From Mesorhizobium sp. NZP2077 (GTDB taxonomy: Bacteria; Pseudomonadota; Alphaproteobacteria; Rhizobiales; Rhizobiaceae), in assembly GCF_013170805.1 (NCBI RefSeq), contig NZ_CP051294.1:62001-126000 (forward strand): a stretch of 64,000 bases of DNA, written 5' to 3'. The notes beneath the pieces are model-generated. The model saw only the letters and a list, made by a program, of their open reading frames with translations. It was not told the origin of the DNA and searched no databases. The position numbers were made by a program, and so were the translations under genes. This document shows positions 6,647 to 25,606 of the stretch, one piece after another. Every line of letters starts with the position of its first letter. Position 1 is the stretch's first letter.

Positions 6647-6852
6647 ACGCTCCCCCGAAATGAGGGATATTAGTAAACGTTCATGAAAGTTTCATGAGAC
6701 CCGCAATTTCAAACATGGGGTAATCGCGGGAGCGAGTCGCCCTAAGGCCGGAAGCGCTCACATGATTGCAGAGCGGGTGGTTGTTCCCCGATAGGATGGA
6801 AGTGCGGGCTCACGAGTGGACGCCGGGCCCAAGCATCGAACGGAGAACAACC

Positions 6853-8420: not shown

Positions 8421-9110
8421 ATGAAGCAACAGACCCGTCCATTCATCGTAGAGGTTAAACAAAAGCGCGGCGTTCAAAAACAGGGTCGTCCCATTTGGGG
8501 TGATGTTGACCTGTCCGCTATTGCGGCCGAGGTGGCCAAGGATGCAGAGGTAGTGTTTCTGCCAAATCCTCGGCCGGTTGACACCGTCGTCGGGTCTATC
8601 GATGCAGAAGATCAACCCAATCAGAAAGCGGAGCCTTACATGGCCGATCCTCAGGAAGCTCAATCACGCCAAGGTACTATGGAAGCATCTGCCACGCCGA
8701 ACCCGCTCGAGACGAAAAAGAAAACCTCACGACTGGGAAAGGCAAAGGCTGAAGCCAAACAGCCTCCGCGAAAGAATGGCGCCAAGCCTGCTTCGAAGGC
8801 AGCCGAAGCCCCAGCTGCAGCGGTCCGGACCGGGCGAAAAGTCTACTCCCTGATCGAACGCTCGCAGAGGCTTGCCCAGATCGGTAACTCGATTGCCGGC
8901 GGCGCTACCCTCAAGCACGCCGTCGGTCAGGCGGGTATATCCGAACAGACCTATTATCTCTGGAAGAAGGCCGCAGCGCCTGTCCAGGATGGCGGCGACC
9001 TCAAGGATCTGCTCGCGCTCGAGGAAGAGAACAGGCGACTGAAGAACCTGCTTGCGGACCGTTTGCGCAAAGAGAATGCCGAGTTGAAGAAGAAGTTAGG
9101 CCTCGCCTAA
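8421..9110 (+). CDS. SyrB-like transcriptional regulator (229 aa)
   Basis: The C-terminal ~100 residues carry the SyrB signature: a helix-turn-helix region (ERSQRLAQIGNSI ... AGISEQTYYLWKKA) and then a coiled coil (LEEENRRLKNLLADRLRKENAELKKKLGLA). This is the IS3/IS66 OrfA-type fold reused as a regulator. In Sinorhizobium meliloti SyrB controls syrM and so nodulation and exopolysaccharide genes; here no syrM is visible. The N-terminal 120 residues are a low-complexity Lys/Ala/Pro-rich extension longer than in SyrB. AGGAAAGG lies 6 bp before the ATG. A transposase-derived protein that still serves an IS is an alternative. Confidence 0.75.
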   Translation: MKQQTRPFIVEVKQKRGVQKQGRPIWGDVDLSAIAAEVAKDAEVVFLPNPRPVDTVVGSIDAEDQPNQKAEPYMADPQEAQSRQGTMEASATPNPLETKKKTSRLGKAKAEAKQPPRKNGAKPASKAAEAPAAAVRTGRKVYSLIERSQRLAQIGNSIAGGATLKHAVGQAGISEQTYYLWKKAAAPVQDGGDLKDLLALEEENRRLKNLLADRLRKENAELKKKLGLA

Positions 9111-9149
9111 GTTCACCTCAAACCCGCCAACGAAGGACCCGCGCGACGA

Positions 9150-10528: not shown

Positions 10529-13500
10529 ATGAACATCGTTACGACCACACCGGCCGCCGCCCGGACGGCCGCACCCCTTGCCGCGCAGTCACCCGTCGGC
10601 CGCGACAAAGCTCAGGCGGTCTATCAGGCGGGAATGCTGCTTCTGCCTTTCCTCGAGCAGGGAAAGCCGATCACCACCGCCGCACTACGCATCGCCATGT
10701 CAGAAATCTTTGGCGGCACCGATGCGCAAGGTTTTTGGGTCTGGAAGGACGCCTATGAGGCGCTCGAAGCCGCCCAGGTGCTGTTTCTGCGCCGGTTCGG
10801 ACCAGCGATCCTGTCGCGATCGACCACGCCGCAGGCGACGCTGGCAATGATGAAGCGCATCGCCGAACTTCTTCCCAGCCATACGCGACGGTCCGACGAG
10901 AGCCAGGCCATGCAGCAGCTGTCGACGCCGCTGCCGCTCGCCTTCGTCACGGCGCAAGCCGCGGCAATGGCGTCTTCAGACCTCGTTCTAGAACCCTCGG
11001 CCGGAACCGGCCTGCTCGCCGTCCATGCCGAGATCGTGCGGGCCTCGCTCGCCCTCAACGAGTTTGCCGCGACGCGGGCCGATCTCCTCGGTCTGCTGTT
11101 TGCGCGTGTCCCCATATCGCGCCACGACGCGGCCCATATCAACGATCATCTCGATCAAGCCCTTGCGCCGTCCGTCATCATGATGAACCCACCCTTTACC
11201 GTCGGCGCCTATGTAGAAGGCCATGTCGCCGACGCCGCATGGCGGCACCTCTCCTCCGCGTTCGCGCGCCTGCGAGTCGGCGGACGCCTGGTCGCGATCA
11301 CCGGCACGGGGCTTTCTCCCGAAAATCTCAAATGGCGACCCGCCTTCGGACGGCTGCAGCAGCAGGGGACGATCGCCTTCACCGCGGCAATTGACGGCCG
11401 CGTTTATGCCCGCCACGGCACCACCGCCGAGACCCGCCTGACCGTCATCGACAAGGTCCCCGCCGGCGACCCGACCCGCTTTGTCACCTCGCCAGGCAAG
11501 GCCACGGATGTCGAAACACTGCTCTCCTGGATCACGGATGTACCGCCGCGGACACCGGGCGGCTTTCCGGACTCGATCGGCGCCTTGTCGAACGGCATCC
11601 TGCGCAACGCCGCCATGCAGATGGCGGCGCGATCCACGGCGAGAGCCGCACCCATCTCTGTGTCCGCAACCGCACCAAAACCCGTCAGATCGGTCCGGCC
11701 GGCAGTCCGGTCAGCGCCCAGCCCCTCGCTGGCGTCAAGCAGCAGCTCTGCCGTTCCCCTTGCCTACGAGCTGCGCGACTGGATGCCGGAGCAGGGCGGC
11801 CGGCTCACCGACACGATCTACGAACCCTATGCGCTGCAGTCGATCCATATGCCCCGGGCAAAACCGCATCCGACGCCACTCGTGCAGTCGGCGGCAATGG
11901 CCGCGGTTGCACCGCCCAAGCCGTCCTACCGGCCCCTCCTGCCCGACGCGATCATCGACGAAGGTTTGCTGTCCGACGCCCAGCTCGAAAGTGTGATCTA
12001 TTCCGGCGAAGCCCATTCTGGCCATCTCAGCGGGACCTGGACCGTCGACGAAACCTGCGACGTCGTCTCGGCCGCGCCAGAAGGCGCGGAAAACGCGGTA
12101 CGCTTCCGCCGCGGATGGTTTTTGGGCGACGGTACCGGCTGCGGCAAGGGACGACAGGTCGCGGGCATCATCCTCGACAACTGGCTGCAGGGCCGCCGCC
12201 GCGCCATCTGGATCTCCAAGTCCGACAAGTTGTTGGAAGACGCCCAGCGCGATTGGGCAGCACTCGGCCAGGAGCGGCTTCTGGTCCAGCCGCTCTCGCG
12301 CTATCGGCAGGGCACGCCGATCCGCCTTGCCGAAGGCATCCTCTTCACCACCTACGCAACCCTGCGTTCGCAAGAGCGCGACGGCAAAAAATCCCGCATC
12401 GCCCAGATCCTCGACTGGGTCGGACAAGAGGGGAGGAGGGCAGAAGGTCCGACGGGGACTGAAGAAAACCAGGCGGGGAGCGGTGACGCCGCGACAGGGA
12501 CTAAAAAGCCCTTTGATGGCGTCATCGTCTTTGACGAAGCGCACGCCATGGCCAACGCCGCCGGGGGAAAAAGCGATCGCGGCGACGTCGCGCCGTCGCA
12601 GCAGGGCAGGGCGGGCCTGCGGCTACAGCATGCGCTTCCCGACGCCCGTGTCGTCTACGTCTCAGCGACGGGTGCGACCGCCGTGGAAAACCTTGCCTAC
12701 GCCCAGCGGCTCGGCATCTGGGGCAGCGAGGATTTTCCGTTCGCCAACCGCGCCGAATTCGTCGCCGCGATCGAGGACGGCGGCGTCGCGGCGATGGAGG
12801 TGCTCGCCCGCGACCTCAAGTCACTCGGGCTCTACACGTCGCGTTCGCTTTCCTATGACGGCGTCGAATACGACCTTCTCGAGCACGCGCTGACAGAGGA
12901 GCAGATCCGCATCTACAATGCCTATGCCGACGCCTTCCAAGTCATCCACAACAACCTCAACGCGGCGCTCGAGGCGACCAATATCACCAGCGATTCCGCG
13001 ACGCTCAACCGCAACGCCAAAGCGGCGGCGCGCTCGGCCTTCGAGAGCACCAAGCAGCGCTTCTTCAACCATCTGATCACATCGATGATGACGCCGACCC
13101 TGATCGGCGCGATCGAGCAGGACCGTTCCGATGGTCATTCGGCAGTCGTGCAGATCGTCTCCACCGGCGAGGCGCTGATGGAACGGAGGCTGGCCGACAT
13201 CCCCACGGAGGAATGGTCGGACCTCCATGTCGACGTCACGCCGCGCGAGTACGTCGGCGGGTACTTGATGCACTCCTTCCCGACGCAGCTGTTCGAAGAG
13301 TACTCGGACGCCGAGGGCAACGTCACTTCGCGGCCCGTCCATGACGCGGACGGCAATCCCGTCCAATGCCGCGAAGCGGTGCGCCGGCGCGACGAGATGA
13401 TCGAAAAACTCGCGTCGCTGCCACCGGTCGGCAGCGCGCTCGACCAGATCCTCCATCACTTCGGCACCGATGTCGTTGCCGAGGTTACAGGCCGCTCGCG

Positions 13501-15067
13501 GCGCATCGTGAAGAAGACCGGCCGCGACGGCGTCGACCGGCTGGCCGTCGAGAACCGTCCCGGCTCGGCCAATCTCGCTGAGACGCAGGCGTTCATGGAT
13601 GACGACAAAAGCGTGCTGGTTTTTTCCGACGCCGGCGGCACCGGCCGCTCCTATCACGCCGATCTCGGCGCAAAAAACCAGAGACTGCGCAAGCACTACC
13701 TGCTCGAGGCCGGCTGGCGCGCCGACAACGCCATTCAGGGTCTCGGGAGGACGCACCGCACCAACCAGGCGAGGCCGCCGCTATTCCGGCCCATGGCCGC
13801 CAATGTGAAGGCCGGCAAGCGGTTCCTGTCGACGATAGCCAGGCGGCTCGACACGCTGGGCGCGATCACGCGTGGCCAGCGCCAGACTGGCGGGGCAGGG
13901 CTGTTTCGCGCCGAGGACAATCTTGAAAGCCCCTATGCCCGCGCCGCGCTACGCCAATTTTACTATCTGCTCCACCAGGGCAAGATACAGGGCTGCTCGC
14001 TCACCACCTTCGAAGCGGTCACCGGCCTGTCGCTGACCTCCGACGAGGGTGGATTGCGCGACGAGCTGCCGCCGATCACGACCTGGCTCAACCGCCTGCT
14101 GGCGCTGCGCATCGAGACCCAGAACCTGCTGTTTGAAGTGTTCGAGCAGCTGATGACGGCGAAGGTCGAAGGCGCCATCGCTGCCGGCAACTATGACAAG
14201 GGACTGGAGACGATCACGGCGGAGAGCATCGTCGTCACGGATCGTAGGACTATTTACACACACCCGGTCTCGGGCGCGCAGTCGCATGTGCTTACCGTCG
14301 CGCGCAAGGACCGCATCCGACCGCTCGGCCTTGTCGATGCACTGGCGATTGCGCGCGTGGAGCCCCAATCCCTCATGCTGGTGAACACCCGTTCGAGCCG
14401 CGCGGCGATACAGCTTCCGACGGCGAGCCTGATGCTCGACGACGGGACCGTCGAACACCGCGTCCGCCTGCTGCGGCCAACCGACGAGCTGCGCTTTGGC
14501 CTCGACGCCCTTGCCGAAACCCACTGGCAGCCGACTGAGCGAAACCTGTTCTGTGACCTCTGGCAGACTGAAGTCGCCGCCGTCCCGGAGTTCACGACGA
14601 GCAACTTCCACATTGTCACCGGCCTGCTGTTGCCGATCTGGCGGCGGCTACCGGACGATGACTGCCAGGTCTACCGAATCCAGACCGATGCCGGCGAGCG
14701 CATCATCGGGCGTCACATCGCATCGACGCTGGTGGCGACCCTGTTCCGGAATCTGGGTCTCGACGATGTGCCGACGCTCGCGCCAGAAGAGGCCTGGACC
14801 GGGCTCGTGGAAGGCAAGATCGGATTGCAGCTTGCCGACGGACTGATCCTGCGCCGCAGCCGGGTCATGAACCACTACCGTGTCGAGTTGATCGGCTTCA
14901 CCGATGCGATGGTTCCCCGGCTGAAGGCGCTGGGGCTGATCTCCGAAATCATCTCCTGGAAGCTGAGGCTGTTCATCCCGACGGCCGCCCAAGGATCCGA
15001 CATCCTGACCTCCCTCTTCGACCGTCATACGCTGGTCGGTGTCACCGGCCGTACGGCAGCGGCTTGA
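10529..15067 (+). CDS. Methyltransferase plus strawberry-notch-like helicase protein (1512 aa)
   Basis: A very large two-part protein. Residues ~140-300 form a class I methyltransferase domain: motif I EPSAGTGLL near 155 and the amino-methylase motif NPPF near 219. From ~480 onward comes a strawberry-notch/SF2 helicase: Walker A in GDGTGCGKGRQ (~533), DEAH in VFDEAHAMANAAG (~668), motif III in VSATGATA (~711), and the C-terminal domain with FSDAGGTGRSYHADL and QGLGRTHRTNQ (motif VI, ~1071). Bacterial relatives are plasmid- or phage-borne and thought to act on DNA, perhaps in anti-restriction or establishment; that role is inferred. The ATG at 10529 follows GAAGGA; an upstream in-frame start (10421) lacks one. 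The stop is 12 bp before the Toprim gene, which implies an operon. Confidence 0.9.
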   Translation: MNIVTTTPAAARTAAPLAAQSPVGRDKAQAVYQAGMLLLPFLEQGKPITTAALRIAMSEIFGGTDAQGFWVWKDAYEALEAAQVLFLRRFGPAILSRSTTPQATLAMMKRIAELLPSHTRRSDESQAMQQLSTPLPLAFVTAQAAAMASSDLVLEPSAGTGLLAVHAEIVRASLALNEFAATRADLLGLLFARVPISRHDAAHINDHLDQALAPSVIMMNPPFTVGAYVEGHVADAAWRHLSSAFARLRVGGRLVAITGTGLSPENLKWRPAFGRLQQQGTIAFTAAIDGRVYARHGTTAETRLTVIDKVPAGDPTRFVTSPGKATDVETLLSWITDVPPRTPGGFPDSIGALSNGILRNAAMQMAARSTARAAPISVSATAPKPVRSVRPAVRSAPSPSLASSSSSAVPLAYELRDWMPEQGGRLTDTIYEPYALQSIHMPRAKPHPTPLVQSAAMAAVAPPKPSYRPLLPDAIIDEGLLSDAQLESVIYSGEAHSGHLSGTWTVDETCDVVSAAPEGAENAVRFRRGWFLGDGTGCGKGRQVAGIILDNWLQGRRRAIWISKSDKLLEDAQRDWAALGQERLLVQPLSRYRQGTPIRLAEGILFTTYATLRSQERDGKKSRIAQILDWVGQEGRRAEGPTGTEENQAGSGDAATGTKKPFDGVIVFDEAHAMANAAGGKSDRGDVAPSQQGRAGLRLQHALPDARVVYVSATGATAVENLAYAQRLGIWGSEDFPFANRAEFVAAIEDGGVAAMEVLARDLKSLGLYTSRSLSYDGVEYDLLEHALTEEQIRIYNAYADAFQVIHNNLNAALEATNITSDSATLNRNAKAAARSAFESTKQRFFNHLITSMMTPTLIGAIEQDRSDGHSAVVQIVSTGEALMERRLADIPTEEWSDLHVDVTPREYVGGYLMHSFPTQLFEEYSDAEGNVTSRPVHDADGNPVQCREAVRRRDEMIEKLASLPPVGSALDQILHHFGTDVVAEVTGRSRRIVKKTGRDGVDRLAVENRPGSANLAETQAFMDDDKSVLVFSDAGGTGRSYHADLGAKNQRLRKHYLLEAGWRADNAIQGLGRTHRTNQARPPLFRPMAANVKAGKRFLSTIARRLDTLGAITRGQRQTGGAGLFRAEDNLESPYARAALRQFYYLLHQGKIQGCSLTTFEAVTGLSLTSDEGGLRDELPPITTWLNRLLALRIETQNLLFEVFEQLMTAKVEGAIAAGNYDKGLETITAESIVVTDRRTIYTHPVSGAQSHVLTVARKDRIRPLGLVDALAIARVEPQSLMLVNTRSSRAAIQLPTASLMLDDGTVEHRVRLLRPTDELRFGLDALAETHWQPTERNLFCDLWQTEVAAVPEFTTSNFHIVTGLLLPIWRRLPDDDCQVYRIQTDAGERIIGRHIASTLVATLFRNLGLDDVPTLAPEEAWTGLVEGKIGLQLADGLILRRSRVMNHYRVELIGFTDAMVPRLKALGLISEIISWKLRLFIPTAAQGSDILTSLFDRHTLVGVTGRTAAA

Positions 15068-15079
15068 GGGGCCGCGACC

Positions 15080-15265
15080 ATGACCGGCTCGGCTTCCGAT
15101 CTGGCACACCGCCTTGGCGATCATGCCGAGGCGGTGTGCCGCGAATATCTTTCCAACGGTCATCGCTCGGGCAATCACTGGATTGTCGGCGACGTGCGCA
15201 ACACGCGCGGCCGCTCCATGCACGTCCGCCTGAAAGCCAATGCGAAAGGACCAGCAGGCAAATGG
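15080..15265 (+). pseudogene. Toprim gene A, 5' fragment (codons 1-62)
   Basis: MTGSASDLAHRLGDHAEAVC through GPAGKW aligns residue for residue with the first 65 residues of the intact Toprim proteins downstream (ELARRLARDAEAVC ... AAGHW). Right after the Trp codon (15263-15265) the sequence enters the inverted repeat and the homology ends; the frame then runs to a meaningless stop at 15376. Joined to 23547-24410 it would give 349 aa, matching the 348 and 352 aa of its paralogues. It is therefore the disrupted partner of the upstream helicase gene. Confidence 0.85.
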
Positions 15266-15694
15266 GTCGAATATGTTGCGCCGGGGATTATGTTGCGCGC
15301 CAGCGATGGGGCCTGGTTCTGGCGGCGGTCGACGGCCTTTGCGCAACATAATCTCAGTGCGCGGGAGGTCGGATGATGCCCCGCGATGCTTCCGAGCTGG
15401 CGCGCCGTCTCGCCCGCGATGCCGAGGCAGTCTGCCGCCACTACCTCTCCAACGGCCGGCGTCAGGGTCGCTATTGGATGGTGGGCGATGTTCGCAACAC
15501 GCCGGGCCGGTCGATGTTCGTCCGGCTCAGCGGCCCGGAAGCCGGTCCCGGCGCTGCCGGGCACTGGACCGATGCCGCCTCCGCTCAGCACGGCGATCTT
15601 CTCGACGTGATCCGCGAGAGCTGCGATCTCGCGCACTTTCGCGATGTCACCGACGAAGCACGGCGCTTCCTCAGCCTGCCGCGCCCGGAACCGG
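15265..15694 (+). repeat. 430-bp inverted repeat, left copy
   Basis: Identical by inspection to the reverse complement of 20467-20896, starting at GGTCGAATATG and ending at CCGGAACCGG. It includes about 108 bp upstream of Toprim B and its first 107 codons. Beyond the repeat the two Toprim genes diverge immediately. See the findings for the predicted invertibility. Confidence 0.92.
15270..15353. repeat. Recombination-site-like repeats TATGTTGCGC inside the inverted repeat
   Basis: TATGTTGCGC occurs at 15271-15280 and 15289-15298 as a direct repeat, and GATTATGTTGCGC (15286-15298) is repeated perfectly inverted as GCGCAACATAATC at 15341-15353, 42 bp apart. The pattern of short dyad arms resembles tyrosine-recombinase core sites. 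The same arrangement is present in mirror image near 20808-20891. Confidence 0.6.
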
Positions 15695-16419
15695 CGCTGC
15701 CATCGGACGCGGCGGTCCGGCGCGAACTGGTCCCGCAAGGCTCGGCCGAAGCCGCGAGGCGTTTGTTCGCAGCGTCACGGCCGATTAGCCGGACGCTCGT
15801 CGAGACCTACCTCTGCAATCGCGGTATCATATCGGTGGAGGATGCCGGCGCACTGCGCTTCCACCCGCAATGCTGGTATCGACCGTCTGACGAGGATCGA
15901 CCCGGCACGCCAGAAGCCCTTCCGGCAATGATCGCCGCCGTTACCGATCTGACTGGACGGCAGACGGGCGCGCACCGCACCTGGCTCGATGGGGCGACAC
16001 GCAACAAGGCCGACATCGCCACACCCCGCCGCGCGATGGGCGAGTTGCTCGGCCATGCCGTGCGTTTTGGCGCTGCCGACAAAGTCCTCGCTGTTGGCGA
16101 AGGCATCGAAACCATGCTGTCGCTGCGATGCGCGCAACCGGCCATGCCGGCGGCGGCCGCGCTTTCCGCCAACCACCTCGCTGGCCTGCTGCTCCCGGCA
16201 ACGCTGCATCGACTCTATATAGCCCGCGACGCCGATGCGGCGGGTGACATGGCCTTCGCGGCATTGACCGAGCGGGCCGGAGCGGTTGGCATTGAAGCGC
16301 TGCCCCTGTCTCCGCGAACGAGCGACTTCAACGAGGATCTCCGCAGATTTGGGCTCGCTGGGCTTCGAGCGGCGTTGCGAGTCCAGTTCGCACCGCAGGA
16401 CGCGCATTTGCTGAGATAG
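15373..16419 (+). CDS. Toprim-domain protein B (348 aa)
   Basis: The N-terminal ~110 residues form a DUF7146-like primase-associated region (RRQGRYWMVGDVRNTPGRSM; HGDLLDVIRESCDL). The C-terminal Toprim domain shows the acidic Glu in LAVGEGIETMLSL (~residue 243) and Asp-x-Asp in YIARDADAAGDMA (~283-285), the metal-binding residues of primase/topoisomerase-type enzymes. It probably acts on DNA or primes synthesis on the transferred element. MM start: the second ATG (15376) is equally likely; GGAGG lies 8 bp upstream. It duplicates split gene A, and its N-terminal part is identical to that of Toprim C while the C-terminal part is only similar. Confidence 0.85.
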   Translation: MMPRDASELARRLARDAEAVCRHYLSNGRRQGRYWMVGDVRNTPGRSMFVRLSGPEAGPGAAGHWTDAASAQHGDLLDVIRESCDLAHFRDVTDEARRFLSLPRPEPALPSDAAVRRELVPQGSAEAARRLFAASRPISRTLVETYLCNRGIISVEDAGALRFHPQCWYRPSDEDRPGTPEALPAMIAAVTDLTGRQTGAHRTWLDGATRNKADIATPRRAMGELLGHAVRFGAADKVLAVGEGIETMLSLRCAQPAMPAAAALSANHLAGLLLPATLHRLYIARDADAAGDMAFAALTERAGAVGIEALPLSPRTSDFNEDLRRFGLAGLRAALRVQFAPQDAHLLR

Positions 16420-16478
16420 CTTTCTTCACCGCGCCCTGTGCAGAAGTTTGGGCTTCCACCCAACATGGAGGCACAAAT

Positions 16479-17726
16479 ATGTTTGAAGAAATATTCTTTC
16501 CTCGCAACGCTAAGAAATATCGAGCAGCTCCCCTGTTTGAAGAGCGAGAACAATATCTCATTCACCGTAGGGATTTGGGCGCGACACGATCAAGCTTGCG
16601 GAAATGCGCCAATAATCAACTGAGTTTGATGCACCTCCTGAATCTGCAAGAAGACCGCAGAGCGTGTCCTTCGCAGGTCGAAGCAGCCGCCGCGAGTTGG
16701 TCTCAGCCGAAAGGACGCAGATGCGACTGGTTGGCATCACCCAAGACTACAGCCCGCTTTGTAGCCGACGCAGTCAGCTGGCTCCGCTTTCTCGGCTGGC
16801 TCGAAGAAACCGAAACGGACAACCGTCGATGCGGTGCCGAGGTTGGGGCCTACGAATTATGGATGCGCCGCGATCGCGGACTGTCCGAAGCGACGATACG
16901 AGGTTACCGAGCGGCGGCCGATCAGTTTCTCGAATGGCTGACGTTGGCAAAAATCCCATTGGGTTCGATCAGCGTCGTCGACGTCGACGATGCCGTCATC
17001 GCTAAGAAGGCGCAGGGAACTAGGGGTCGAAGGACGATCCATGATTACGCACAACGCCTTCGTGCATTCATCCGATACTCCGAAGCTCAGCGCTGGTGTG
17101 CGCCCGGCATCGCCGACGGTATCATGCCGCCGCGCTTCGATCGCGACGAAGGCATCCCGAGGGGCCTGAATCGGGAAGACGTTCTACGCCTACTGGCGAC
17201 GACGGAAGGCAATCGGTTAGCGGACAAGCGTGACCGCGCAATTTTGATGCTGTTCATCGCTTACGGCCTCCGCGCGGGTGAAGTTTGCGGTTTGCGTCTG
17301 GATGACCTCGATTGGGAAAACGAGATCATCCGGGTCCGCTGTCCGAAGACGAGCAGGACACAAATCTATCCTTTGTCACTAGCGGTGGGTGGCGCCATCG
17401 TCCGATATATCCGCGAAGCTCGGCCGTCCCGCTTTGGCCGCGAGCTTTTCTTCACAACCTGCGCGCCAATCCGGCCCGTCTATCCCAGTGTTTTGGGAGC
17501 GACGGTGCGACGCCGCCTAGCTGCCCTGGGTATCGTCACCGGAAAGCGGGGAACCCACGCGTTGCGTCACGCGGCTGCCCAGCATCTTCTGGATCAGGGC
17601 ATGCCGATGAAAGTGATCGGGGACTTTCTTGGGCACCGAGATCCATCCTCCACCGCGATATACGCAAAGGTCAATCTCGCAGCTCTGCGCGAGGTGGCGG
17701 CTCTCGATATGGAGGGTCTGGCATGA
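16479..17726 (+). CDS. RIT tyrosine recombinase A (415 aa)
   Basis: The first recombinase of the trio. It has a long N-terminal extension (~90 aa, with LFEEREQYLIHRR), then a core-binding domain (LSEATIRGYRAAADQFLEWL) and a catalytic domain with Arg in AYGLRAGEVCGLRLDDLDW, HALRHAAAQHLL, and FLGHRDPSSTAIYAKV carrying the nucleophile. GGAGG 7 bp before the ATG fixes the start. It overlaps the second gene by 4 bp (ATGA), which implies coupled translation and a heteromeric recombination complex, as proposed for RIT elements. All catalytic residues are present, so it is probably active. Confidence 0.9.
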   Translation: MFEEIFFPRNAKKYRAAPLFEEREQYLIHRRDLGATRSSLRKCANNQLSLMHLLNLQEDRRACPSQVEAAAASWSQPKGRRCDWLASPKTTARFVADAVSWLRFLGWLEETETDNRRCGAEVGAYELWMRRDRGLSEATIRGYRAAADQFLEWLTLAKIPLGSISVVDVDDAVIAKKAQGTRGRRTIHDYAQRLRAFIRYSEAQRWCAPGIADGIMPPRFDRDEGIPRGLNREDVLRLLATTEGNRLADKRDRAILMLFIAYGLRAGEVCGLRLDDLDWENEIIRVRCPKTSRTQIYPLSLAVGGAIVRYIREARPSRFGRELFFTTCAPIRPVYPSVLGATVRRRLAALGIVTGKRGTHALRHAAAQHLLDQGMPMKVIGDFLGHRDPSSTAIYAKVNLAALREVAALDMEGLA

Positions 17727-18673
17727 TACTGCGCGATGCGATCGAGCAATATGTCGCCTGGCGACGCGCCCATGGAGCTAAACTCACAAGCGTTGCCAAT
17801 CTTCTGCGTGACTTTCTCAGATATGCCGATGGGGACGCCAACTGCGATCAAGTGAGCGCCGCTCAGGTTCTGGCCTTCCTGGCGGGAAAGAGACCGTTGG
17901 CTTGGCACCGGGTGAACAAACATTACGCCCTTTCCGGCTTTTGGCGATTTGCGATCAGCCGCGGCCACGCAACAGGCTCGCCGCTTCCGTCCAGCGAACC
18001 GAAAGCGCCGCCTCGTACGCCGCCATATATCTATACACATGACGATCTGCGGCGGCTCTTCGATCCCGAAACCATTGCGAACAGCCGACGCGGTGCTGTT
18101 CAGCTCGACGCCGTGACCCTCCGCACGCTGCTTCTCATGCTATATGGAGCAGGGTTGCGCTTCAGCGAAGCGACGGGCCTCACTCTGGCGGACGTCGATC
18201 TCGACGAAGCCATTCTAACCATACGCGCGACGAAGTTCTACAAAAGCCGACTGGTTCCGATCGGACCCCAACTGGCAACGGTGCTGGCGAACTACATGCC
18301 TGTGCGACGGCGCGGCCGATGTGCACAGGGAGAGACTTCGTTCCTCCTGGCAAACCGGGACGGCACACGCCTCGCCAGCAGCACGGTGCAGAGCGCATTT
18401 GACGCATTGCGGCGCAGCGCTGGGGTTCCCGGGTCGGCGGGCGGCCGGCGAACCCCGCGACTGCACGACTTGAGACACAGCTTCGCCGTTCACAGCCTGA
18501 CATCCTGGTATCGTCAGGGAGCGGATGTCCAACGGTTGCTGCCCGTACTCTCCACTTATCTGGGCCATTCCGATCTGGAGGGCACCAAGGTCTATCTGTC
18601 GATGACCCCGGAGCTTCTGCAGCAGGCTGCGCTACGCTTTGCTTCCTATGCGGAGGGAGGCCGACATGCCTGA
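17723..18673 (+). CDS. RIT tyrosine recombinase B (316 aa)
   Basis: The second of the trio. Core-binding domain at residues 1-90 (MILRDAIEQYVAWRRAHG ... HYALSGFWRFA); catalytic domain with Arg in YGAGLRFSEATGLTLADVDL, HDLRHSFAVHSL and YLGHSDLEGTKVYLSM. An open frame extends upstream to 17312, but it is antisense-like coding over recombinase A; the ATG at 17723 overlaps the previous stop and gives the family's usual length. The active-site set R-K-HxxR-H-Y appears complete. Confidence 0.9.
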   Translation: MILRDAIEQYVAWRRAHGAKLTSVANLLRDFLRYADGDANCDQVSAAQVLAFLAGKRPLAWHRVNKHYALSGFWRFAISRGHATGSPLPSSEPKAPPRTPPYIYTHDDLRRLFDPETIANSRRGAVQLDAVTLRTLLLMLYGAGLRFSEATGLTLADVDLDEAILTIRATKFYKSRLVPIGPQLATVLANYMPVRRRGRCAQGETSFLLANRDGTRLASSTVQSAFDALRRSAGVPGSAGGRRTPRLHDLRHSFAVHSLTSWYRQGADVQRLLPVLSTYLGHSDLEGTKVYLSMTPELLQQAALRFASYAEGGRHA

Positions 18674-19661
18674 ATTCGTAACCCTTGGCCCATGGCTCCG
18701 GCGCTTCCTGTCCGAATACATCGTCACCGAACGCAATCTGGCCCGGAACACCCGCGCCAGTTATCGCGACACGTTCAGCCTATTACTGCCGTTCGTCAGC
18801 CGTAAGCTGCGCAAATCCGTCGACCGGTTGGCCGTGCGCGATCTCAGCTCGGCACTGGTGCTGCAGTTCCTCGCATATCTCGAGGAAGATCGCGGATGCT
18901 CGGCTCGGACCCGCAACCAGAGGCTTGCTGCAATCCGCGCGTTCGCTCGCTTCATAGGCAGCCGGGATCCCGCCCATGTCGAGTGGTGCGGCCATATCCG
19001 GGCCATCGCGTCGAAGAAATCCCTGTCGCAACCGGTCGGATGGCTCACCAGAACGGAAATGGAGTCCATGCTCGCCGTCCCCGACCGCAAAACCAGGAGG
19101 GGCCAAAGCGAGTATGCGCTTCTGCTCTTTCTCTACAACACTGGAGCGCGTGTCTCTGAGGCCGCGCAGCTGAAAGTGGGCGATCTCCAGATCGGGGGCG
19201 GCAACGGCGGTCACGACCTCGCCACCCTGCACGGAAAGGGCGGAAAGACGCGCCAATGTCCATTGTGGCCGGAAACGGAACGAGTGCTGGCTCCCGAGAT
19301 ACATGGACGCGCGATCGATGATGCGGTCTTTGTCAGCCGGCTTGGAACCGCGTTCACCCGCTTCGGCGTCTATCGCCTTATCGAGCGCTGCGCCGCGCGC
19401 GTTCCGAAGCTGGCTGGCAGAACGATAACCCCCCATGTCATCCGGCATACGACGGCTTGCCATCTGGTCCTGGCCGGCGTGGACATCAACACGATCCGTG
19501 CATGGCTAGGCCACGTCTCGATCAGCACCACCAATATCTACGCCGAGATCGACCTGACGCTCAAGGCCAATGCGGTGGCTCTTTGCGAGGTCGGTGAATC
19601 AAGACCCGGTCGATCTTGGAAGGAGGACAAGGATCTCATGACCTTTCTGAAATCCTTATAA
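18666..19661 (+). CDS. RIT tyrosine recombinase C (331 aa)
   Basis: The third of the trio. The N-terminus MPEFVTLGPWLRRFLSEYI leads into a core-binding domain (RNTRASYRDTFSLLLPFV); the catalytic domain has Arg in YNTGARVSEAAQLKVGDL, HVIRHTTACHLV and WLGHVSISTTNIYAEI. The start at 18666 overlaps the preceding stop by 8 bp; the alternative start at 18639 would overlap more and is less like the family. It ends 5 bp before a large hairpin. Proteins of this group are usually the most XerC-like of the three. Confidence 0.9.
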   Translation: MPEFVTLGPWLRRFLSEYIVTERNLARNTRASYRDTFSLLLPFVSRKLRKSVDRLAVRDLSSALVLQFLAYLEEDRGCSARTRNQRLAAIRAFARFIGSRDPAHVEWCGHIRAIASKKSLSQPVGWLTRTEMESMLAVPDRKTRRGQSEYALLLFLYNTGARVSEAAQLKVGDLQIGGGNGGHDLATLHGKGGKTRQCPLWPETERVLAPEIHGRAIDDAVFVSRLGTAFTRFGVYRLIERCAARVPKLAGRTITPHVIRHTTACHLVLAGVDINTIRAWLGHVSISTTNIYAEIDLTLKANAVALCEVGESRPGRSWKEDKDLMTFLKSL

Positions 19662-19666
19662 GGCAG

Positions 19667-19719
19667 GCGCTATATCGTGGCGGGCGCTCCGCCGATGAAT
19701 CGCCCGCACGATATAGCGC
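19667..19719. repeat. Long hairpin at the right end of the RIT operon
   Basis: A 20-nt arm at 19667-19686 pairs with 19701-19719 with a single bulged base and a 14-nt loop. It starts 5 bp after the last recombinase stop. It could terminate the recombinase operon in both directions (Toprim C ends at 19730 on the other strand) or be the element's terminal structure; no long T-run is present. Confidence 0.7.
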
Positions 19720-19729
19720 TATGCGTGGT

Positions 19730-20788
19730 TCAGCCCACCCCCAGCGCTGGTCTGGAGAATCGCTCAACATCCTTCGGTCGTAGTTGCGTCACCAACTTCG
19801 CGCGAAGTGTCGACAGACCGGCGTGGCAAAGATCGTCGTTGAAGTCGTTCAAATACGGCGACAGCACGCGCGGCTCGATCGCCGCCGCCTCGGCCTTGGC
19901 CGTCAACGCCGCCACCGTAGCGTCACCCGCAGGGTCTGCGTCCCGCAAGATGTAGAGCACGCGCAAATGCTCCGGAAAGAGCATGGCGGCGAGATGGTTG
20001 GAGGAGAGCGCCGCCGCCAGTGGCAAGTTGGGCAAGGCCTCGCGCACGGACAGCACGGTCTCGATACCCTCACCGACGGCCAGCACATCTTCGGGAACTC
20101 CGAACCGCACTGCGTGGCCGAGCAAATGGCCCATAGCCCGTCGCGGGGTCGCTAAGGGTGCCTTGCCTCCGTCAGGATCCAGCCAGGTGCGGTGGACCCC
20201 GGTGATCGTGCCGGCAAGGTCGGCGACGGCGGCGATCAACGCCGGCCATGCCGTGTGGGTGGCTGGTGGGTCAGCCTCGTCCGGTCGATAATAGCAGCGT
20301 GGGTGAAACCGGAGGCATGCAAGCCCCGCCACGCCGATCAGGCGCCGGCCATGAAGGTAACGCTCTGCCATTGTCCCGCTGATCGGCCTCGACGCGGCGA
20401 AAAGGCGCCTCGCGGCGTCCGACGATCCAGCGGCGACAGGCGTTCGATCGAGATTCTCAGCCTGGACCGGTTCCGGGCGCGGCAGGCTGAGGAAGCGCCG
20501 TGCTTCGTCGGTGACATCGCGAAAGTGCGCGAGATCGCAGCTCTCGCGGATCACGTCGAGAAGATCGCCGTGCTGAGCGGAGGCGGCATCGGTCCAGTGC
20601 CCGGCAGCGCCGGGACCGGCTTCCGGGCCGCTGAGCCGGACGAACATCGACCGGCCCGGCGTGTTGCGAACATCGCCCACCATCCAATAGCGACCCTGAC
20701 GCCGGCCGTTGGAGAGGTAGTGGCGGCAGACTGCCTCGGCATCGCGGGCGAGACGGCGCGCCAGCTCGGAAGCATCGCGGGGCATCAT
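19730..20788 (-). CDS. Toprim-domain protein C (352 aa)
   Basis: The same architecture as Toprim B: the N-terminal 107-109 residues are identical because they lie in the 430-bp inverted repeat, and the rest is a different homologue. Toprim residues: Glu in LAVGEGIETVLSV and the Asp pair in YILRDADPAGDATV. The C-terminus is unique (RFSRPALGVG). It converges on the RIT operon. Its upstream region outside the repeat is the IS91-like element, so unlike the B copy it cannot be read from the helicase operon and must rely on a promoter within the repeat or beyond. Confidence 0.85.
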   Translation of the reverse strand: MMPRDASELARRLARDAEAVCRHYLSNGRRQGRYWMVGDVRNTPGRSMFVRLSGPEAGPGAAGHWTDAASAQHGDLLDVIRESCDLAHFRDVTDEARRFLSLPRPEPVQAENLDRTPVAAGSSDAARRLFAASRPISGTMAERYLHGRRLIGVAGLACLRFHPRCYYRPDEADPPATHTAWPALIAAVADLAGTITGVHRTWLDPDGGKAPLATPRRAMGHLLGHAVRFGVPEDVLAVGEGIETVLSVREALPNLPLAAALSSNHLAAMLFPEHLRVLYILRDADPAGDATVAALTAKAEAAAIEPRVLSPYLNDFNDDLCHAGLSTLRAKLVTQLRPKDVERFSRPALGVG

Positions 20789-20896
20789 CCGACCTCCCGC
20801 GCACTGAGATTATGTTGCGCAAAGGCCGTCGACCGCCGCCAGAACCAGGCCCCATCGCTGGCGCGCAACATAATCCCCGGCGCAACATATTCGACC
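20467..20896 (-). repeat. 430-bp inverted repeat, right copy
   Basis: Perfect inverted copy of 15265-15694. It ends at 20896, where the IS91-like element begins. Paired positions sum to 36161 throughout. Confidence 0.92.
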
Positions 20897-20906
20897 TAGG
20901 ACTAAC

Positions 20907-20928
20907 CCGCTCCGCCACGGCGGAGCGG
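20907..20928. repeat. Near-perfect palindrome at the IS91-like left end
   Basis: 10-bp GC-rich arms with a 2-nt centre, 11 bp inside the junction with the 430-bp repeat. Possible terminal hairpin of the rolling-circle element. Confidence 0.6.
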
Positions 20929-21063
20929 CAAGGGGGGTGTACGCCGACGGCGCGGTCTTGATGGCGTCCTCTGTCGTGCCGGTCAGGCGTTCAATAGGAG
21001 CTCCAACTGCGCGAGCATGGGGTGGCTGCTTGCAGCCCATTCCATCGGACAAAGGAGCTTGTC

Positions 21064-21945
21064 ATGACCCAACTTCGGCAACGCATGAGCGAGGACATGC
21101 AGGTGCGCAACTTCGCGCTCAACACCCAGCTCTCCTATCTGCAACAGGTGTCGCTGTTCGCCCGCCACTTCGGCAAGTCGCCGGACGTGCTCGGGCGCGA
21201 GGACATTCGGACCTATCAGGTCTATCTGACCAACGAGAAGAAGCTGGCGTCCGGTTCGATCCACACCGCCATCGCTGCGCTGCGCTTTCTCTACAGTGTG
21301 ACGCTCGAAAGGGACTGGGCGCCTGAAGAGGTCCTCCCGTTTCCCAAGAAGCCGCAGAAGCTGCCGATCATCCTCAGCCCCGAGGAAGTTCAGCAATTCC
21401 TCGGCTGCGTCCTCAACGTCAAACACCACGCCATCCTGACCACCTGCTATGCCGCCGGCTTGCGCATCTCGGAGGCGGTTCAGCTGAAGACCACGGACAT
21501 CGACAGCCAGAGAATGGTCATCCGCGTCGAGCAGGGCAAAGGCCAGAAGGACCGCTACGTGATGCTGTCGCCCAAGCTGCTGGAGATCCTGCGCAGCTAT
21601 TGGAAGGTGTGCCGGCCAGAGGCGAGGCTCTTCCCCGGCGATCGCGCCGGCCAGCCGATCACCAGGGATGCGGTGGGACAAGCCTGCGCGAAAGCGCGCG
21701 ACCTCTCCCGCTTGCCCAAACCGGTCACGCCGCACAGCCTGCGGCACGCCTTTGCCGTCCATCTATTGGAGGCCGGCGCCGACGTGCGCACCATTCAACT
21801 GCTGCTCGGTCACCGCAGCCTCGCGACCACCGCCCATTACCTGCGGATTGCCACCAACAAGGTCTGCGCCACGTCGAGCCCGTACGAGCTCTTACCGCGT
21901 CCGGCCCCCACCCCGCCGCCGCCGGCCAAGCCTCAGTACTTCTGA
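21064..21945 (+). CDS. Tyrosine recombinase associated with IS91-like transposase (293 aa)
   Basis: XerC/D-like: core-binding domain MTQLRQRMSEDMQVRNF ... IRTYQVYLTNEKK, then a catalytic domain with Arg in YAAGLRISEAVQLKTTDID, HSLRHAFAVHLLEAG, and LLGHRSLATTAHYLRI. The start is set by AAAGGAG just upstream of the ATG at 21064. The Pro-rich tail (APTPPPPAKPQYF) is characteristic of the recombinase that commonly precedes IS91-type transposases. Whether it helps transposition or resolves cointegrates is not established. Confidence 0.9.
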   Translation: MTQLRQRMSEDMQVRNFALNTQLSYLQQVSLFARHFGKSPDVLGREDIRTYQVYLTNEKKLASGSIHTAIAALRFLYSVTLERDWAPEEVLPFPKKPQKLPIILSPEEVQQFLGCVLNVKHHAILTTCYAAGLRISEAVQLKTTDIDSQRMVIRVEQGKGQKDRYVMLSPKLLEILRSYWKVCRPEARLFPGDRAGQPITRDAVGQACAKARDLSRLPKPVTPHSLRHAFAVHLLEAGADVRTIQLLLGHRSLATTAHYLRIATNKVCATSSPYELLPRPAPTPPPPAKPQYF

Positions 21946-21955
21946 GCTCAAGCCG

Positions 21956-23155
21956 ATGGCCCGCTCGGGGCCGGAGGTGGCGGATATATTCCGCCGCTAT
22001 GGCGAAGCCTATCGCGTGCAGCATGACGCGTCGCTCAGCACCGCGCAGCGTCGCGTCATGACGGCGATCGAACTCTGCCGCACCGCCGCGCTCGGCGGGC
22101 ATATCGAGCAGTGCGATCAATGCGGCCACCAGCGCATCGCCTTCAACAGCTGCCGCGACAGACATTGTCCCCGCTGCCAATCGCTGGCCCGCGCGCAATG
22201 GCTGGAGGACCGTCGCGCCGAGCTTCTCGACACACAGTACTTCCACGTCGTCTTCACGCTGCCGGGTGACATTGCCGCCATCGCCTATCAGAACAAGGCG
22301 CTCGTCTACGGTCTGCTCTTCCGCGCCACCGCCGAGACACTGCGCACCATTGCCGCCGATCCCAAACACCTGGGTGCCGAGATCGGCTTCTTCGCCGTGC
22401 TGCACACCTGGGGCCAGAACTTGCTGCACCATCCCCACCTGCACTGCGTCGTCCCAGGCGGTGGCCTTTCTGCCGACGGCACGCGATGGATTGCCTGCAA
22501 ACCCGGCTTCTTCCTGCCGGTCCGGGTGCTCTCACGCCTGTTCCGACGCTTGTTTCTGGAGCACCTGGAGAAAGCCTTCGCGGCCGGCCAGTTGAAGTTC
22601 TTCTCTAGCTTGCAGGCCTTGAGCGAGCGCGACGCCTTCCGGCGCTATCTGGCGCCCCTTCGAAAGGCCGAGTGGGTGATCTTCGCCAAGCCGCCCTTCG
22701 CCGGACCCGAACAGGTCCTCGACTACGTCGGCCGCTATACGCACCGCGTCGCCATTTCCAACAATCGCCTCGTCGCCATCGAGGATGGCACCGTTCGTTT
22801 CCGCTGGAAGGACTATCGGCACGGCAATCGGCAAAAGGTCATGACCGTCTCGGCCGACGAGTTCATGCGCCGCTTCCTGCTGCATGTCCTGCCCGACGGC
22901 TTCCATCGCATCCGCTATTACGGCTTCCTCGGCAATCGCCATCGCGCGCAAAAGCTCGCCCACTGCCGCGACCTGCTCGGCATGCCGGCTCCAGAGGCGT
23001 CGAACAGCTGCTCGGCGAAGGACTACCGCGACCGCTACGAGGACCTTACCGGGCATTCCCTCCGGCAATGCCCGGCCTGTCATCAGGGGCGGATGATCGT
23101 CATCGAAACGTTCGACGGCGTCACCGGACCCCCGCCATACCGGGATACATCATGA
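21956..23155 (+). CDS. IS91-family HUH (Y2) transposase (399 aa)
   Basis: The N-terminal zinc-binding domain has CDQCGH (~residue 53) and HCPRC (~70). The HUH motif is HLHCVV (~160) and the paired catalytic tyrosines lie in DYVGRYTHR (~256-260). It transposes by a rolling-circle-like mechanism using one active Tyr at a time. The start at 21956 (MARSGPEVADIFRRYG) is 10 bp after the recombinase stop; the longer open frame upstream overlaps that gene and is not real. A second Cys pair near the C-terminus (CPACHQGRM) may bind a second zinc. Appears intact. Confidence 0.92.
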   Translation: MARSGPEVADIFRRYGEAYRVQHDASLSTAQRRVMTAIELCRTAALGGHIEQCDQCGHQRIAFNSCRDRHCPRCQSLARAQWLEDRRAELLDTQYFHVVFTLPGDIAAIAYQNKALVYGLLFRATAETLRTIAADPKHLGAEIGFFAVLHTWGQNLLHHPHLHCVVPGGGLSADGTRWIACKPGFFLPVRVLSRLFRRLFLEHLEKAFAAGQLKFFSSLQALSERDAFRRYLAPLRKAEWVIFAKPPFAGPEQVLDYVGRYTHRVAISNNRLVAIEDGTVRFRWKDYRHGNRQKVMTVSADEFMRRFLLHVLPDGFHRIRYYGFLGNRHRAQKLAHCRDLLGMPAPEASNSCSAKDYRDRYEDLTGHSLRQCPACHQGRMIVIETFDGVTGPPPYRDTS

Positions 23156-23440
23156 AAGAAGCGCTCAGCTTTCGTCGTCACCGTATCGCCCGGGCCGTTC
23201 GGCCGCAAAACCGAGCCGGTCCCGCGAAGGTGCGCGCCGTCACCCCCGGGCAGCCTCTCCCGGCAGGGCGCGGCGCCGGTCCTCACCTTGCCGCAACCGA
23301 TATCCGTGCCGCTTTCGGCGCACCGACCCCTGCAATCGCCGCGTCCACGACCGCATCCGCGCCCACGCCATGCCGGTTCATGGGCACGGCCTCAATTGAA
23401 CGCCCATAGCGGCCACCTGTGCCCGCGGCTTAGTCCAACA

Positions 23441-23518
23441 CGTTTTTAGCTCACCGTCGCGATCCACCACAGCGCGCTCTCGCCAGCCGCCTTTCTGCGC
23501 GACGCCAAGCTAAAAACG
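23441..23518. repeat. 11-bp inverted repeat in the IS91-like 3' tail
   Basis: CGTTTTTAGCT at 23441-23451 and its exact reverse complement at 23508-23518, 56 bp apart, in the non-coding tail. Likely part of the rolling-circle origin or end. Confidence 0.6.
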
Positions 23519-23524
23519 CTCTGC

Positions 23525-23546
23525 ATTATGTGCAGTTGAACATAAG
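23525..23546. repeat. Dyad TTATGT-ACATAA at the insertion's right border
   Basis: The 22 bp ending exactly at the Toprim A junction form a dyad with outer arms TTATGT and ACATAA. It is similar to the TATGTTGCGC motifs at the left border, so it may be the recombination or insertion site. Confidence 0.5.
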
Positions 23547-24410
23547 ACCGATGAGCAAAGCGGCGAACATGGCGACCTGCTCGACGTGATCGAGGCGAGC
23601 TGCGACCTCACGGACTTCCGCGAGGTCGCGGACGAGGCGCGTCGCTTCCTCGCCATGCCGCGGTCCCGACTGCAGTCTCAGACCCTTGGAGCGCAGCGCC
23701 AACCTGCCGCGGCACGCGGTTCGCCCGACGCCGCGCGTCGCCTGTTCGCCATGTCGCAGCCGATCGCCGGTACGCTGGCCGAGCGTTACATTGCCGGCCG
23801 CGGCATTCTGCTTTCCACGCGCGAGCGCGCCCTGCGCTTCCATCCCGCCTGCTATTACCGGGATCTCGTGACGGGCGAGACGCGGACGCTTCCCGCCCTG
23901 ATCGCGGCGGTCAGCGGCCTCGATGGTCGCATCACCGGCCTGCAACGCACCTGGTTAGATCCGGCAGGCAACGGCAAGGCGCATCTCGTCGATCCCCGTC
24001 GCTCGCTGGGCCACCTTCTGGGTAACGGCATCTGGCTTGGCCTCCAGCCCGGTACGCCTGTTCCGGTCATGGCTGCCGGCGAGGGTTTTGAGACGATGGC
24101 CTCGCTCCGGACGGTGATGCCGGCCCTGCCGGTGGCAGCCGCCACCTCGGCCAATCACCTCGCCGGCCTGATCTTCCCGCCCGGCTGTACCCGCCTCTAC
24201 ATCGCGGCCGATGCGGACGCCGCCGGCCGGCATGGCATCGAGCGTCTCAGCCGGCGAGCAGGCGAGGCCGGGATCCTCGCCCTGGTGCTGCAGCCGCGGC
24301 TCGGCGACTTCAACGACGATCTGCGCCATCTCGGCCCGGCCCCTCTAGCGGCATGGCTCAGCGACCAGCTCGTCCCGGAAGATGCCCGTCTCTTCCGTCC
24401 GTCCGGATGA
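23547..24410 (+). pseudogene. Toprim gene A, 3' fragment
   Basis: In frame from TDEQSGEHGDLLDVI to the stop: 287 codons matching residues 66 onward of Toprim B and C, including the Toprim Glu in MAAGEGFETMASL and the Asp pair in YIAADADAAGRHG. A GTG at 23586 could start a 274-aa truncated protein that keeps the whole Toprim domain, so residual function is possible. It was originally continuous with 15080-15265, directly after the helicase gene. Confidence 0.85.
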
Positions 24411-24664
24411 CCGTCTCGGGCCGGCCGGCGGCAGGGCCGCGTCCGGAAGGCCCGCAGGCATGGCGCCGGTCCAACGGAGAGGCCGCGCCCGGGCCTGCCA
24501 GAGCGGCGACCCCGCCACACGGCGGCCTGGCCGTCAACGGCCGTTGGCCGTCCGGCGCTTCGCTGGGCCGCTGCGCTGCGCTTGCGGTGACGGCCCTTCC
24601 GCCGCGTGGCCGGGGCCGACCGTCAGGCCGCGAAAGGCGCGGCCGCAGCCGACGGAGACAGACC

Positions 24665-25606
24665 ATGACTTTCGACCTTCCTTTCGACGACGCCTACGAG
24701 CCCTACCACGCCTCCTCGCCGACCGACCGCGTCATCCTCGAACTGCAGATGTACGGCCATCGCCCGCATCAGGACGAACCTGATCCCCGTCCGCTGCCTG
24801 ACGACGAGGTGATCCGGGTAGGCCTCGCCGGGATCGTCGAGACCTTCGCCGGCATGCTCGGCGACACCAGGCTCGAACCCGATCTCGACGACCTGCTCTG
24901 GTCTTTTACCAACGTCTTCCATCGCGCCGCCGAACGCGTCGCCCGCAGCCTCGACCGCAATGAGGAGGCGCAGCGTTCGAGCCAGCAGGAGCAGGACGGC
25001 TCGGAGGTGAAGTCCGTCGAGCTGGAACGGCTCACGGGCGAAGGCATCACCTACATCGAGCGTCGCAACGTGCTGGAAATCATGCGTGACGAAGCCGCCG
25101 ACCTCTACGAGGCGCAGACCGGATCGGCATGGCGGCCGCGCACTGGATCCAAGGTCTCCCATCAGGCGATGACAGCGGCGGTGATCGACTCCAGAGACTT
25201 CCTCGCCGCGCGCCGCCGCGCAGACACCGAGGTACTGGTGCCGGCCGGCACCAAGATCGCTTTCGCCGGCGGCCTCGACTTTAACGATCACGACCGGATC
25301 TGGGACGCGCTCGACAAGGCCCGTGAGAAGCATCCAGACATGGTCCTGCTCCACGGTGGCAGCCCGCGCGGGGCCGAGCGCATCGCCGCCTGCTGGGCCG
25401 AGAACCGGAAGGTCACCCAGATCGCCTTCAAGCCGGACTGGAACCGTCACGCCAAGGCCGCTCCGTTCCGCCGCAACGACCAGCTGCTCTCGGTGGTGCC
25501 CCACGGCCTGATCGTCTTTCCCGGCTCCGGCATTACTGACAACCTTGCCGATAAGGCCCGTCGGCTCGGCATCCCCGTCTGGCGGTTCGCGGAGGGTGGC
25601 GCGTAA
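24665..25606 (+). CDS. DUF2493 / YspA-like SLOG protein (313 aa)
   Basis: The C-terminal ~130 residues carry the DUF2493 signature: KIAFAGGLDFNDHDRIWDALDKA, then LLHGGSPRGAERIAACWA and a late GSGITDNLADKARRLGI. This is a Rossmann-like SLOG fold thought to bind nucleotide-type ligands. The N-terminal ~170 residues are helical and acidic. A start at 24665 (MTFDLPFDDAYE) follows GGAGACAG; the open frame upstream of it crosses GC-rich repetitive leader sequence (24411-24664) that looks non-coding. Found commonly on rhizobial plasmids beside the helicase and Toprim genes; exact role unknown. Confidence 0.8.
   Translation: MTFDLPFDDAYEPYHASSPTDRVILELQMYGHRPHQDEPDPRPLPDDEVIRVGLAGIVETFAGMLGDTRLEPDLDDLLWSFTNVFHRAAERVARSLDRNEEAQRSSQQEQDGSEVKSVELERLTGEGITYIERRNVLEIMRDEAADLYEAQTGSAWRPRTGSKVSHQAMTAAVIDSRDFLAARRRADTEVLVPAGTKIAFAGGLDFNDHDRIWDALDKAREKHPDMVLLHGGSPRGAERIAACWAENRKVTQIAFKPDWNRHAKAAPFRRNDQLLSVVPHGLIVFPGSGITDNLADKARRLGIPVWRFAEGGA

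Follow-up and report, generated by a model that had tools for sequence, protein, structure and literature searches.

Recombinase-in-trio (RIT) elements are described as three overlapping tyrosine recombinase genes, ritABC, with a palindromic inverted end sequence, inserted within genes such as radC (PMC3414803, PMC2864759). In the available parts of these descriptions they are ~3.5 kb long, have short inverted ends and encode the trio only, and RIT mobility still lacked experimental demonstration as of 2012 (PMC3414803). Toprim_3 is described, in the part of the source available, as the primase domain of elements with transfer resembling that of type IV secretion systems (T4SS), marked by a DaN- motif (PMC5512222). 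The DNA analyzed here, a 64-kb stretch of Mesorhizobium sp. NZP2077 (the window; bases 62001-126000 of a 364.8-kb contig), belongs to the conjugative plasmid pMSNZP2077NSa (NZ_CP033363.1; MOBP, MPF_T) and contains a RIT element with a complete Toprim gene inside each terminus. This element has been inserted into a third Toprim gene, native to the plasmid, cutting it in two. The features of the locus are as follows.

10529..15067, + strand: strawberry-notch-type helicase gene, directly upstream of the target gene (Pfam AAA_34 and Helicase_C_4; annotated 'strawberry notch family protein')
15080..15270, + strand: native Toprim gene 5' fragment, codons 1 to ~63, the start of an open reading frame (ORF) at 15080-15376 (98 aa)
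15265..15694, + strand: left arm, RIT-type terminus (15265-15372) followed by codons 1-107 of Toprim copy A
15373..16419, + strand: Toprim copy A, 348 aa, adjoining the native 5' fragment, the proposed replacement (Pfam DUF7146 and Toprim_3; no internal stop; DaN- motif)
16479..17726, + strand: ritA, tyrosine recombinase (Pfam Phage_integrase)
17723..18673, + strand: ritB, tyrosine recombinase overlapping ritA (Pfam and record annotation)
18666..19661, + strand: ritC, tyrosine recombinase overlapping ritB (Pfam and record annotation)
19730..20788, - strand: Toprim copy B, 352 aa, the far copy, pointing inward (Pfam DUF7146/Toprim_3), with the same first 107 codons and another C-half
20467..20896, - strand: right arm, RIT-type terminus (20789-20896) followed by codons 1-107 of copy B
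20897..23525 (ends approximate), + strand: IS91-family element with a tyrosine recombinase (21064-21945) and a Y2 transposase (21956-23155), separating the right terminus from the RIT spacer
23525..23546 (core 23526-23545), no strand assigned: RIT attachment spacer TTATGTGCAGTTGAACATAA, followed by an ACCGA core
23549..24410, + strand: native Toprim gene 3' fragment (Pfam DUF7146 and Toprim_3), its ORF part being the frame 23586-24410, with a short stretch upstream

Empty sites are present in two sister plasmids, those of Mesorhizobium sp. B2-1-8 (L111) and Aminobacter sp. MDW-2 (L110), where the Toprim gene is uninterrupted; in L111 the gene order around it is that of the window. The native 5' fragment is 92-94% identical to these intact proteins over 64 codons. 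Alignment of the window to L110 and L111 stops at 15270 and resumes from 23561 or 23571, and in a tree of the C-terminal part the native 3' fragment groups with the intact Toprim proteins of L111 and L110 (100% support), away from the element copies. The break in the alignment, its resumption and this grouping together show that ~15271 to 23548 is an insert in that gene. A first-pass annotation of this DNA had overlooked the split gene, which begins at 15080-~15270 and whose remainder (~23549-24410) lies behind the IS91-family element.

The insert is a RIT element in which each arm comprises a RIT-type terminus of ~108 bp and the start of a Toprim gene. The first-pass annotation described the arms as identical inverted copies flanking a recombinase trio, each with the same leader and Toprim N-part joined to a different C-half, and this description is accurate. 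Positions 15265-15694 and the reverse complement of 20467-20896 agree at every base (430/430; chance expectation of a perfect inverted match of this length in 64 kb ~10^-237, bases taken as independent), each arm holds 108 bp and the first 107 codons, and three tyrosine recombinase genes lie between the arms at 16479-19661. Identity between copies A and B ends abruptly past the arms, where the C-parts are 57% identical in amino acid sequence. The supposed 108-bp leader resembles a RIT terminus, in which GATTATGTTGCGC faces GCGCAACATAATC. The arm ends contain boxes of the TTATGTTGCG type, two direct and one inverted, an architecture like that of the ends of plain RITs (L061/L063/L064, L094), and the rit genes are adjacent, run in one direction and overlap by 4 bp and 8 bp. 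Inverted palindromic termini are thus present as in RITs, yet a Toprim gene parts terminus from trio. In L061, L063, and L064, three near-identical plain RITs of one Acidobacteriota metagenome-assembled genome (MAG), the inverted termini abut ritA and ritC, without Toprim, and a palindromic spacer, GTTATGTTGAGTGCCACATAAC, is found at the ritC end in L061 but at the ritA end in L063 and L064. L064 has a further palindrome (3346-3365) that resembles the spacer and whose arms match, 4 kb from the RIT; it is possibly the footprint of an excised RIT. Window RitC is 52% identical over 86% to a recombinase of Cupriavidus necator H16 pHG1 (NC_005241), a plasmid named for RITs in the accessible part of PMC3414803; the comparison covers that match only. 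From terminus to terminus the window element measures 5.6 kb, including the two Toprim genes, and some of its relatives are longer still through cargo, unlike the ~3.5-kb RITs in the text available to us. With its larger size and a complete target-gene copy inside each terminus, it is a RIT variant rather than a typical member.

The element belongs to a family. In contigs from one genome per species, 68 loci encode RitC relatives, some of them distant, and Toprim sequence occurs near the trio or its remnant in 33 of these (L059, with a distant Toprim elsewhere, was excluded from this count and from the Toprim alignments); in 27 of the other 35 the contig measures 3-7.3 kb. Few genomes encode a RitC relative: at E<=1e-120, 2/397 do so in the strain's own order (own genome included), and 2/390 and 4/395 (centres included) in the other sets. 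The plasmid collection holds four other records with RitC at 77-89%, all others being <60% among the best 5000 matches, those listed. Complete examples are Aminobacter aminovorans pAA02, Rhodobacter xanthinilyticus pEJ01 (far copy frameshifted), Sagittula sp. MA-2 p4, Haematobacter massiliensis pOT1-5, and L028, and one genome (G378) has two element copies in one chromosome (L092, L093). Inward-facing Toprim copies flank the trio on both sides in 24 loci, some cut by contig ends and some broken. In a RitABC tree the Toprim-bearing loci form a clade with one plain RIT, L056 (support 1.00); the branch separating L056 has a support of 0.13.

The family has a precise target. An element end abuts a native Toprim fragment in 25 loci, always at the same codons (in L029 with only 21 bp of native gene), a count that covers element ends lying in Toprim genes, many contigs ending inside the repeats. 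The native N-fragments extend to codon 67-72 of the window protein, with C-fragments starting at 61-64. The 5' junction is typically ...TGG-ACCGA-TTATGTTGCG, and the 3' junction reads ...CGCAACATAA-TCGGT-CTTATGT(N8)ACATAAG-ACCGA-native, with core variants GTCGA in the window and ACGGA in L007 and L008. Wherever found in the clade (15/15 loci), the spacer lies on the C-fragment side, regardless of trio direction. One clear pair shows that the element is mobile: in L023 (Methylocapsa) and L024 (a Rhodopila MAG) the elements are 99.7% identical over the 1262 bp compared, whereas the native 3' fragments are 62% identical, so that near-identical elements occupy host genes that differ widely. Some elements have cargo genes situated between the trio and a Toprim copy, among them genes for urease and NikR in L009, for an SLC13 permease and a potassium channel in L006, for a sulfate permease in L040, and for an MFS transporter in L043. 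In other short contigs, where the outer end falls outside the sequence, the neighbors of the trio include transporter, CrcB/DUF190, methyltransferase, and oxidoreductase genes.

The identical beginnings and divergent remainders of the two window copies recur across the family. Synonymous divergence (dS) between the window copies is 0 over 107 codons and 1.67 over the remaining 238; the corresponding N-half/C-half values are 0.06/1.25 in L028, 0.03/1.32 in L034, 0.37/0.96 in L035, 0.24/0.85 in L038, and 0.26/0.62 in L014. N-halves are closer within an element than to any copy of the other eight in 7/9 elements. This dS comparison was used in place of strict within-element pairing on a tree of the N-part, which did not hold. 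The identity breakpoints vary, lying at codon ~107 in the window and from ~80 to ~170 in others. Arms of 1.1-1.2 kb are 99.8-100% identical in L006, L008, L009, L092, and L093, and the arms of L007, where the far copy is frameshifted, are 99.8% identical. In ten elements the C-halves of the ritA side group in a single clade (100% support) to which the ritC-side partners do not belong; it is nested among ritC-side copies in that tree and separate in another. The likeness of N-halves within elements, the differing breakpoints and the separate C-half clade show repeated copying of the outer parts between the ends, after the C-halves had separated. This presumably occurred by homologous recombination rather than by the action of the recombinases; RecA-type conversion in place, crossover inversion, and a palindromic circle junction are possible routes.

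Both orientations of the element are found among 23 loci. The ritA side is nearest the native 5' fragment in nine (window, L007, L009, L023, L024, L043, L092, L093, L104) and the ritC side in 14. On the RIT tree, which took 19 of the 23 loci (L067, L076, L093, and L104 were left out), orientation changes 3 times vs 5.88 expected under shuffled labels, a value as low being reached in 19/2000 shuffles. The closest pair of opposite orientation is 86.7% identical in ritC, and the five closest pairs (96.8-99.8%) agree in orientation, although a single inherited insertion may underlie some same-orientation pairs, L008 and L044, with flanks that align as well, being an example. No close pair differing in orientation was found among the family loci compared, and the two assemblies seen of the window's own plasmid, NZ_CP033363.1 and G000, probably from the same isolate, have one orientation. 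On the time scale of the family there have been at least three changes of orientation, through either inversion or re-insertion. Frequent switching is unlikely, because orientation follows the tree and the closest pairs agree. The asymmetric center of the spacer was considered as a means of distinguishing inversion from re-insertion; its direction is mixed relative to both trio and target (by eye), and it is not decisive.

We consider it probable that this is a RIT-family transposon specialized for one target, which breaks a conjugative-primase-like gene and supplies a replacement, its ends being homogenized by recombination. The three tyrosine recombinases would move a unit whose inverted ends each consist of a terminus and a complete Toprim gene. 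Insertion would occur at a fixed site, the ACCGA core or a variant, right after a Trp codon near codon 65 (Phe in some hosts), and would split the plasmid's Toprim gene in two. The complete copy beside the native 5' fragment would then take over the role of the broken gene and restore primase function, so that the plasmid could carry the element and stay functional; because both ends bear a copy, replacement would work in either direction of the element. Gene conversion between the ends, sometimes with crossover, would keep terminus and N-half alike, while the C-halves would drift apart under purifying selection. Transposition would proceed via a circle, and a circle joining the two ends through the spacer would be almost symmetric and would permit insertion both ways. 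Tn554-type elements and some integrative and conjugative elements and phages also have a fixed target inside a gene, and some restore its 3' or 5' part. There, restoration concerns a gene end and occurs by fusion; here a whole autonomous copy is present, twice and inverted.

The state of the Toprim copies is consistent with the target being a conjugative primase and the end copies its putative replacements. The near copy, beside the native 5' fragment, is full-length and free of stops in 16/19 judgeable loci (exceptions L017, L022, and L023; L024, L027, L029, and L043 are not covered by sequence there), and the far copy is intact in 12/20 (L033, L036, and L044 not covered). The orientation and integrity counts omit L019 and L066, where native 5' fragments flank the element on either side, and L075, which lacks a native fragment. 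On Mesorhizobium amorphae pM0123d (L104) the trio has decayed, ritA being reduced to fragments, but the near Toprim copy is intact. In the one lineage tested, purifying selection acts on both sides: median dN/dS (nonsynonymous over synonymous divergence) is 0.28 for ritA-side copies (36/36 pairs, 9 copies) and 0.25 for ritC-side copies (35/36 pairs, 9 copies). The catalytic motifs GEGxE and DxDxAG are kept in 46/46 element copies, and the DaN- motif is found in both window copies and in 25/28 full-length copies (missing in L023, one L028 copy, and L033).

Several observations weigh against this proposal. Preferential retention of the near over the far copy was tested, and the contrast between 16/19 and 12/20 falls short of significance (Fisher p 0.155; 6 vs 1 discordant loci, two-sided p 0.125). 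In L017 and L022 the element sits in the gene and has no full Toprim copy, in L023 the near copy is lost and the far copy intact, and, outside the count, L019 lacks a full copy and L066 has one on one side. The ritC side is near in L021, L028, and L029, the three elements of known orientation in the ritA-side C-half clade, yet their ritA-side copies are conserved, so that rescue fails to explain that conservation. As orientation tracks phylogeny, recent insertion is non-random in direction. L035 and L038 are exceptions to the greater closeness of N-halves within an element. Nor does the target always belong to the helicase operon: the helicase is directly upstream in 10/16 loci with enough upstream sequence, and among these 16 no strawberry-notch helicase was found upstream in L017, L066, L067, L076, L092, and L093. 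Finally, in L066 (7456-12367) and L019 the element lies between two native Toprim 5' fragments, inverted, an arrangement that probably arose from recombination between two element copies; the two native 5' fragments of L066 lie in 3.9-kb flanks that are just 80% identical.

The first-pass annotation read the locus as an invertible switch based on homologous recombination. In this view, which we extend to inversion by the recombinases, the trio is flipped in place between the 430-bp arms, and the flip chooses the Toprim C-half behind the operon. The geometry allows such an exchange, the arms are perfect and, being homogenized, do recombine, both orientations occur in relatives (9 and 14 loci), and the C-halves differ (dS 1.67) with both sides under purifying selection in the lineage tested; to this extent the proposal stands. 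What is not supported is a rapid expression switch selecting a Toprim variant, given 3 orientation changes vs 5.88 expected and 86.7% as the closest opposite pair. Moreover, a flip would be almost silent in the five loci with arms of 99.8-100% identity, and the element is mobile and sits in a split gene. Conservation of orientation among close relatives rules out a resident switch as our principal interpretation, and we regard it as unlikely.

It is equally doubtful that the Toprim genes are a passive by-product, that is, hitchhiking duplicates on a plasmid with no need of the primase, the arms being long terminal repeats that aid transposition. In plain RITs (L055, L057, L094) the termini, of 90, 123, and 91 bp, are likewise 93-96% identical, and alike ends therefore require no selection on Toprim; elements without full copies also persist in L017, L022, and L019. 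However, a by-product accords poorly with purifying selection on both copies, with catalytic motifs in 46/46, and with survival of the Toprim copy in L104 after decay of the trio. That the identical window arms reflect an assembly error or very recent duplication instead of repeated conversion would account for their 100% identity and is highly improbable, as the pattern of identical N- and different C-parts recurs with different breakpoints, complete plasmids (L006-L009) have the same architecture and the plasmid record and window agree over 15000-24500, the last two points being those on which an assembly artefact was rejected.

Returning to the transposon with replacement copies, a further and more tentative reading, to which we give somewhat less than even weight, is that a transposon lineage captured its own target gene at both ends, may insert either way into this important plasmid gene, and replaces the gene at once, while recombination between the ends continually recombines the shared N-halves with the two differing C-halves. 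Such an element would parasitize conjugative plasmids but repair its own damage, and would also slowly generate chimeric primases, orientation determining which of them is used. Mobile DNA that harms its own vehicle should be selected against, and the family suggests a general escape: to bring the target gene in a form usable in either orientation. The poorly understood RIT class is hereby tied to a precise target, attachment site, and vehicle, which makes its transposition testable, and the arms offer a natural case of terminal repeats growing into coding sequence and evolving in concert.

Other multi-recombinase systems share single features with the locus. The SE and GInt elements resemble it in having several recombinases, and the spacer of the SE circle junction lands on one side of the insertion (PMC10214605, PMC5385486). 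In the accessible sections of these papers they own an extra small gene (srap/ginD), and the SE spacer is 6 bp, vs a palindrome of ~20 bp here. A GInt outward promoter can soften damage to the target (PMC5385486), and no description of target-gene copies in SE or GInt elements was found in the parts of PMC10214605 and PMC5385486 available. The conjugative Toprim primases TraC1 and SogL share the Toprim_3 domain, the DaN- motif, and encoding on T4SS plasmids; here, unlike in what is accessible of their description, such primase-like genes also serve as transposon end-genes (PMC5512222). No RIT with target-gene copies or Toprim at its ends is mentioned in the open-access literature searched, as far as its accessible text goes; the RIT survey of Ricker et al. 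2013 was not covered, so absence from print is not established.

Other identities for the locus were sought. PADLOC assigned none of the four proteins tested to a defense system, Rfam gave no family at gathering score within 14500-25000, and tblastn gave no relatives in viral_contigs, phages yielding only RitC matches of <60%. A search for a solved relative of the Toprim protein gave none with the single sequence, and the best profile match was a DNA primase (2au3; E 0.038).

The strain has a further complete Toprim homolog (63%) on the other contig of its genome (G000:C1:6355724-6356758), and thus another possible primase. The assembled contig (G000:C2, 364822 bp) differs in length from NZ_CP033363.1 (364809 bp) by 13 bp, with full agreement across 15000-24500. 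L017 and L022 have elements that are 99.05% identical, identical native 5' flanks (108 bp), native 3' fragments of 59% identity, and oppositely oriented spacer centers; either these are chimeric MAG contigs or an exchange occurred at the element. A second, plain RIT lies on the window's plasmid (L094 9391-12802; G000:C2 ~205391-208802), with RitC at 66%, 91-bp termini, and no Toprim, and adjoins another copy of the IS91-family element. In the window this IS91-family element, between right end and spacer, may hinder excision. Seven copies of this element with its extra tyrosine recombinase were examined (window 20897-23525, L094 ~6762-9390, and L112-L116; 92 plasmid records match the region), and in 7/7 (by eye) a RIT-type terminus borders the element exactly on one side and a RIT-type palindromic spacer on the other; it looks like an IS91-family element that homes to RIT attachment junctions.

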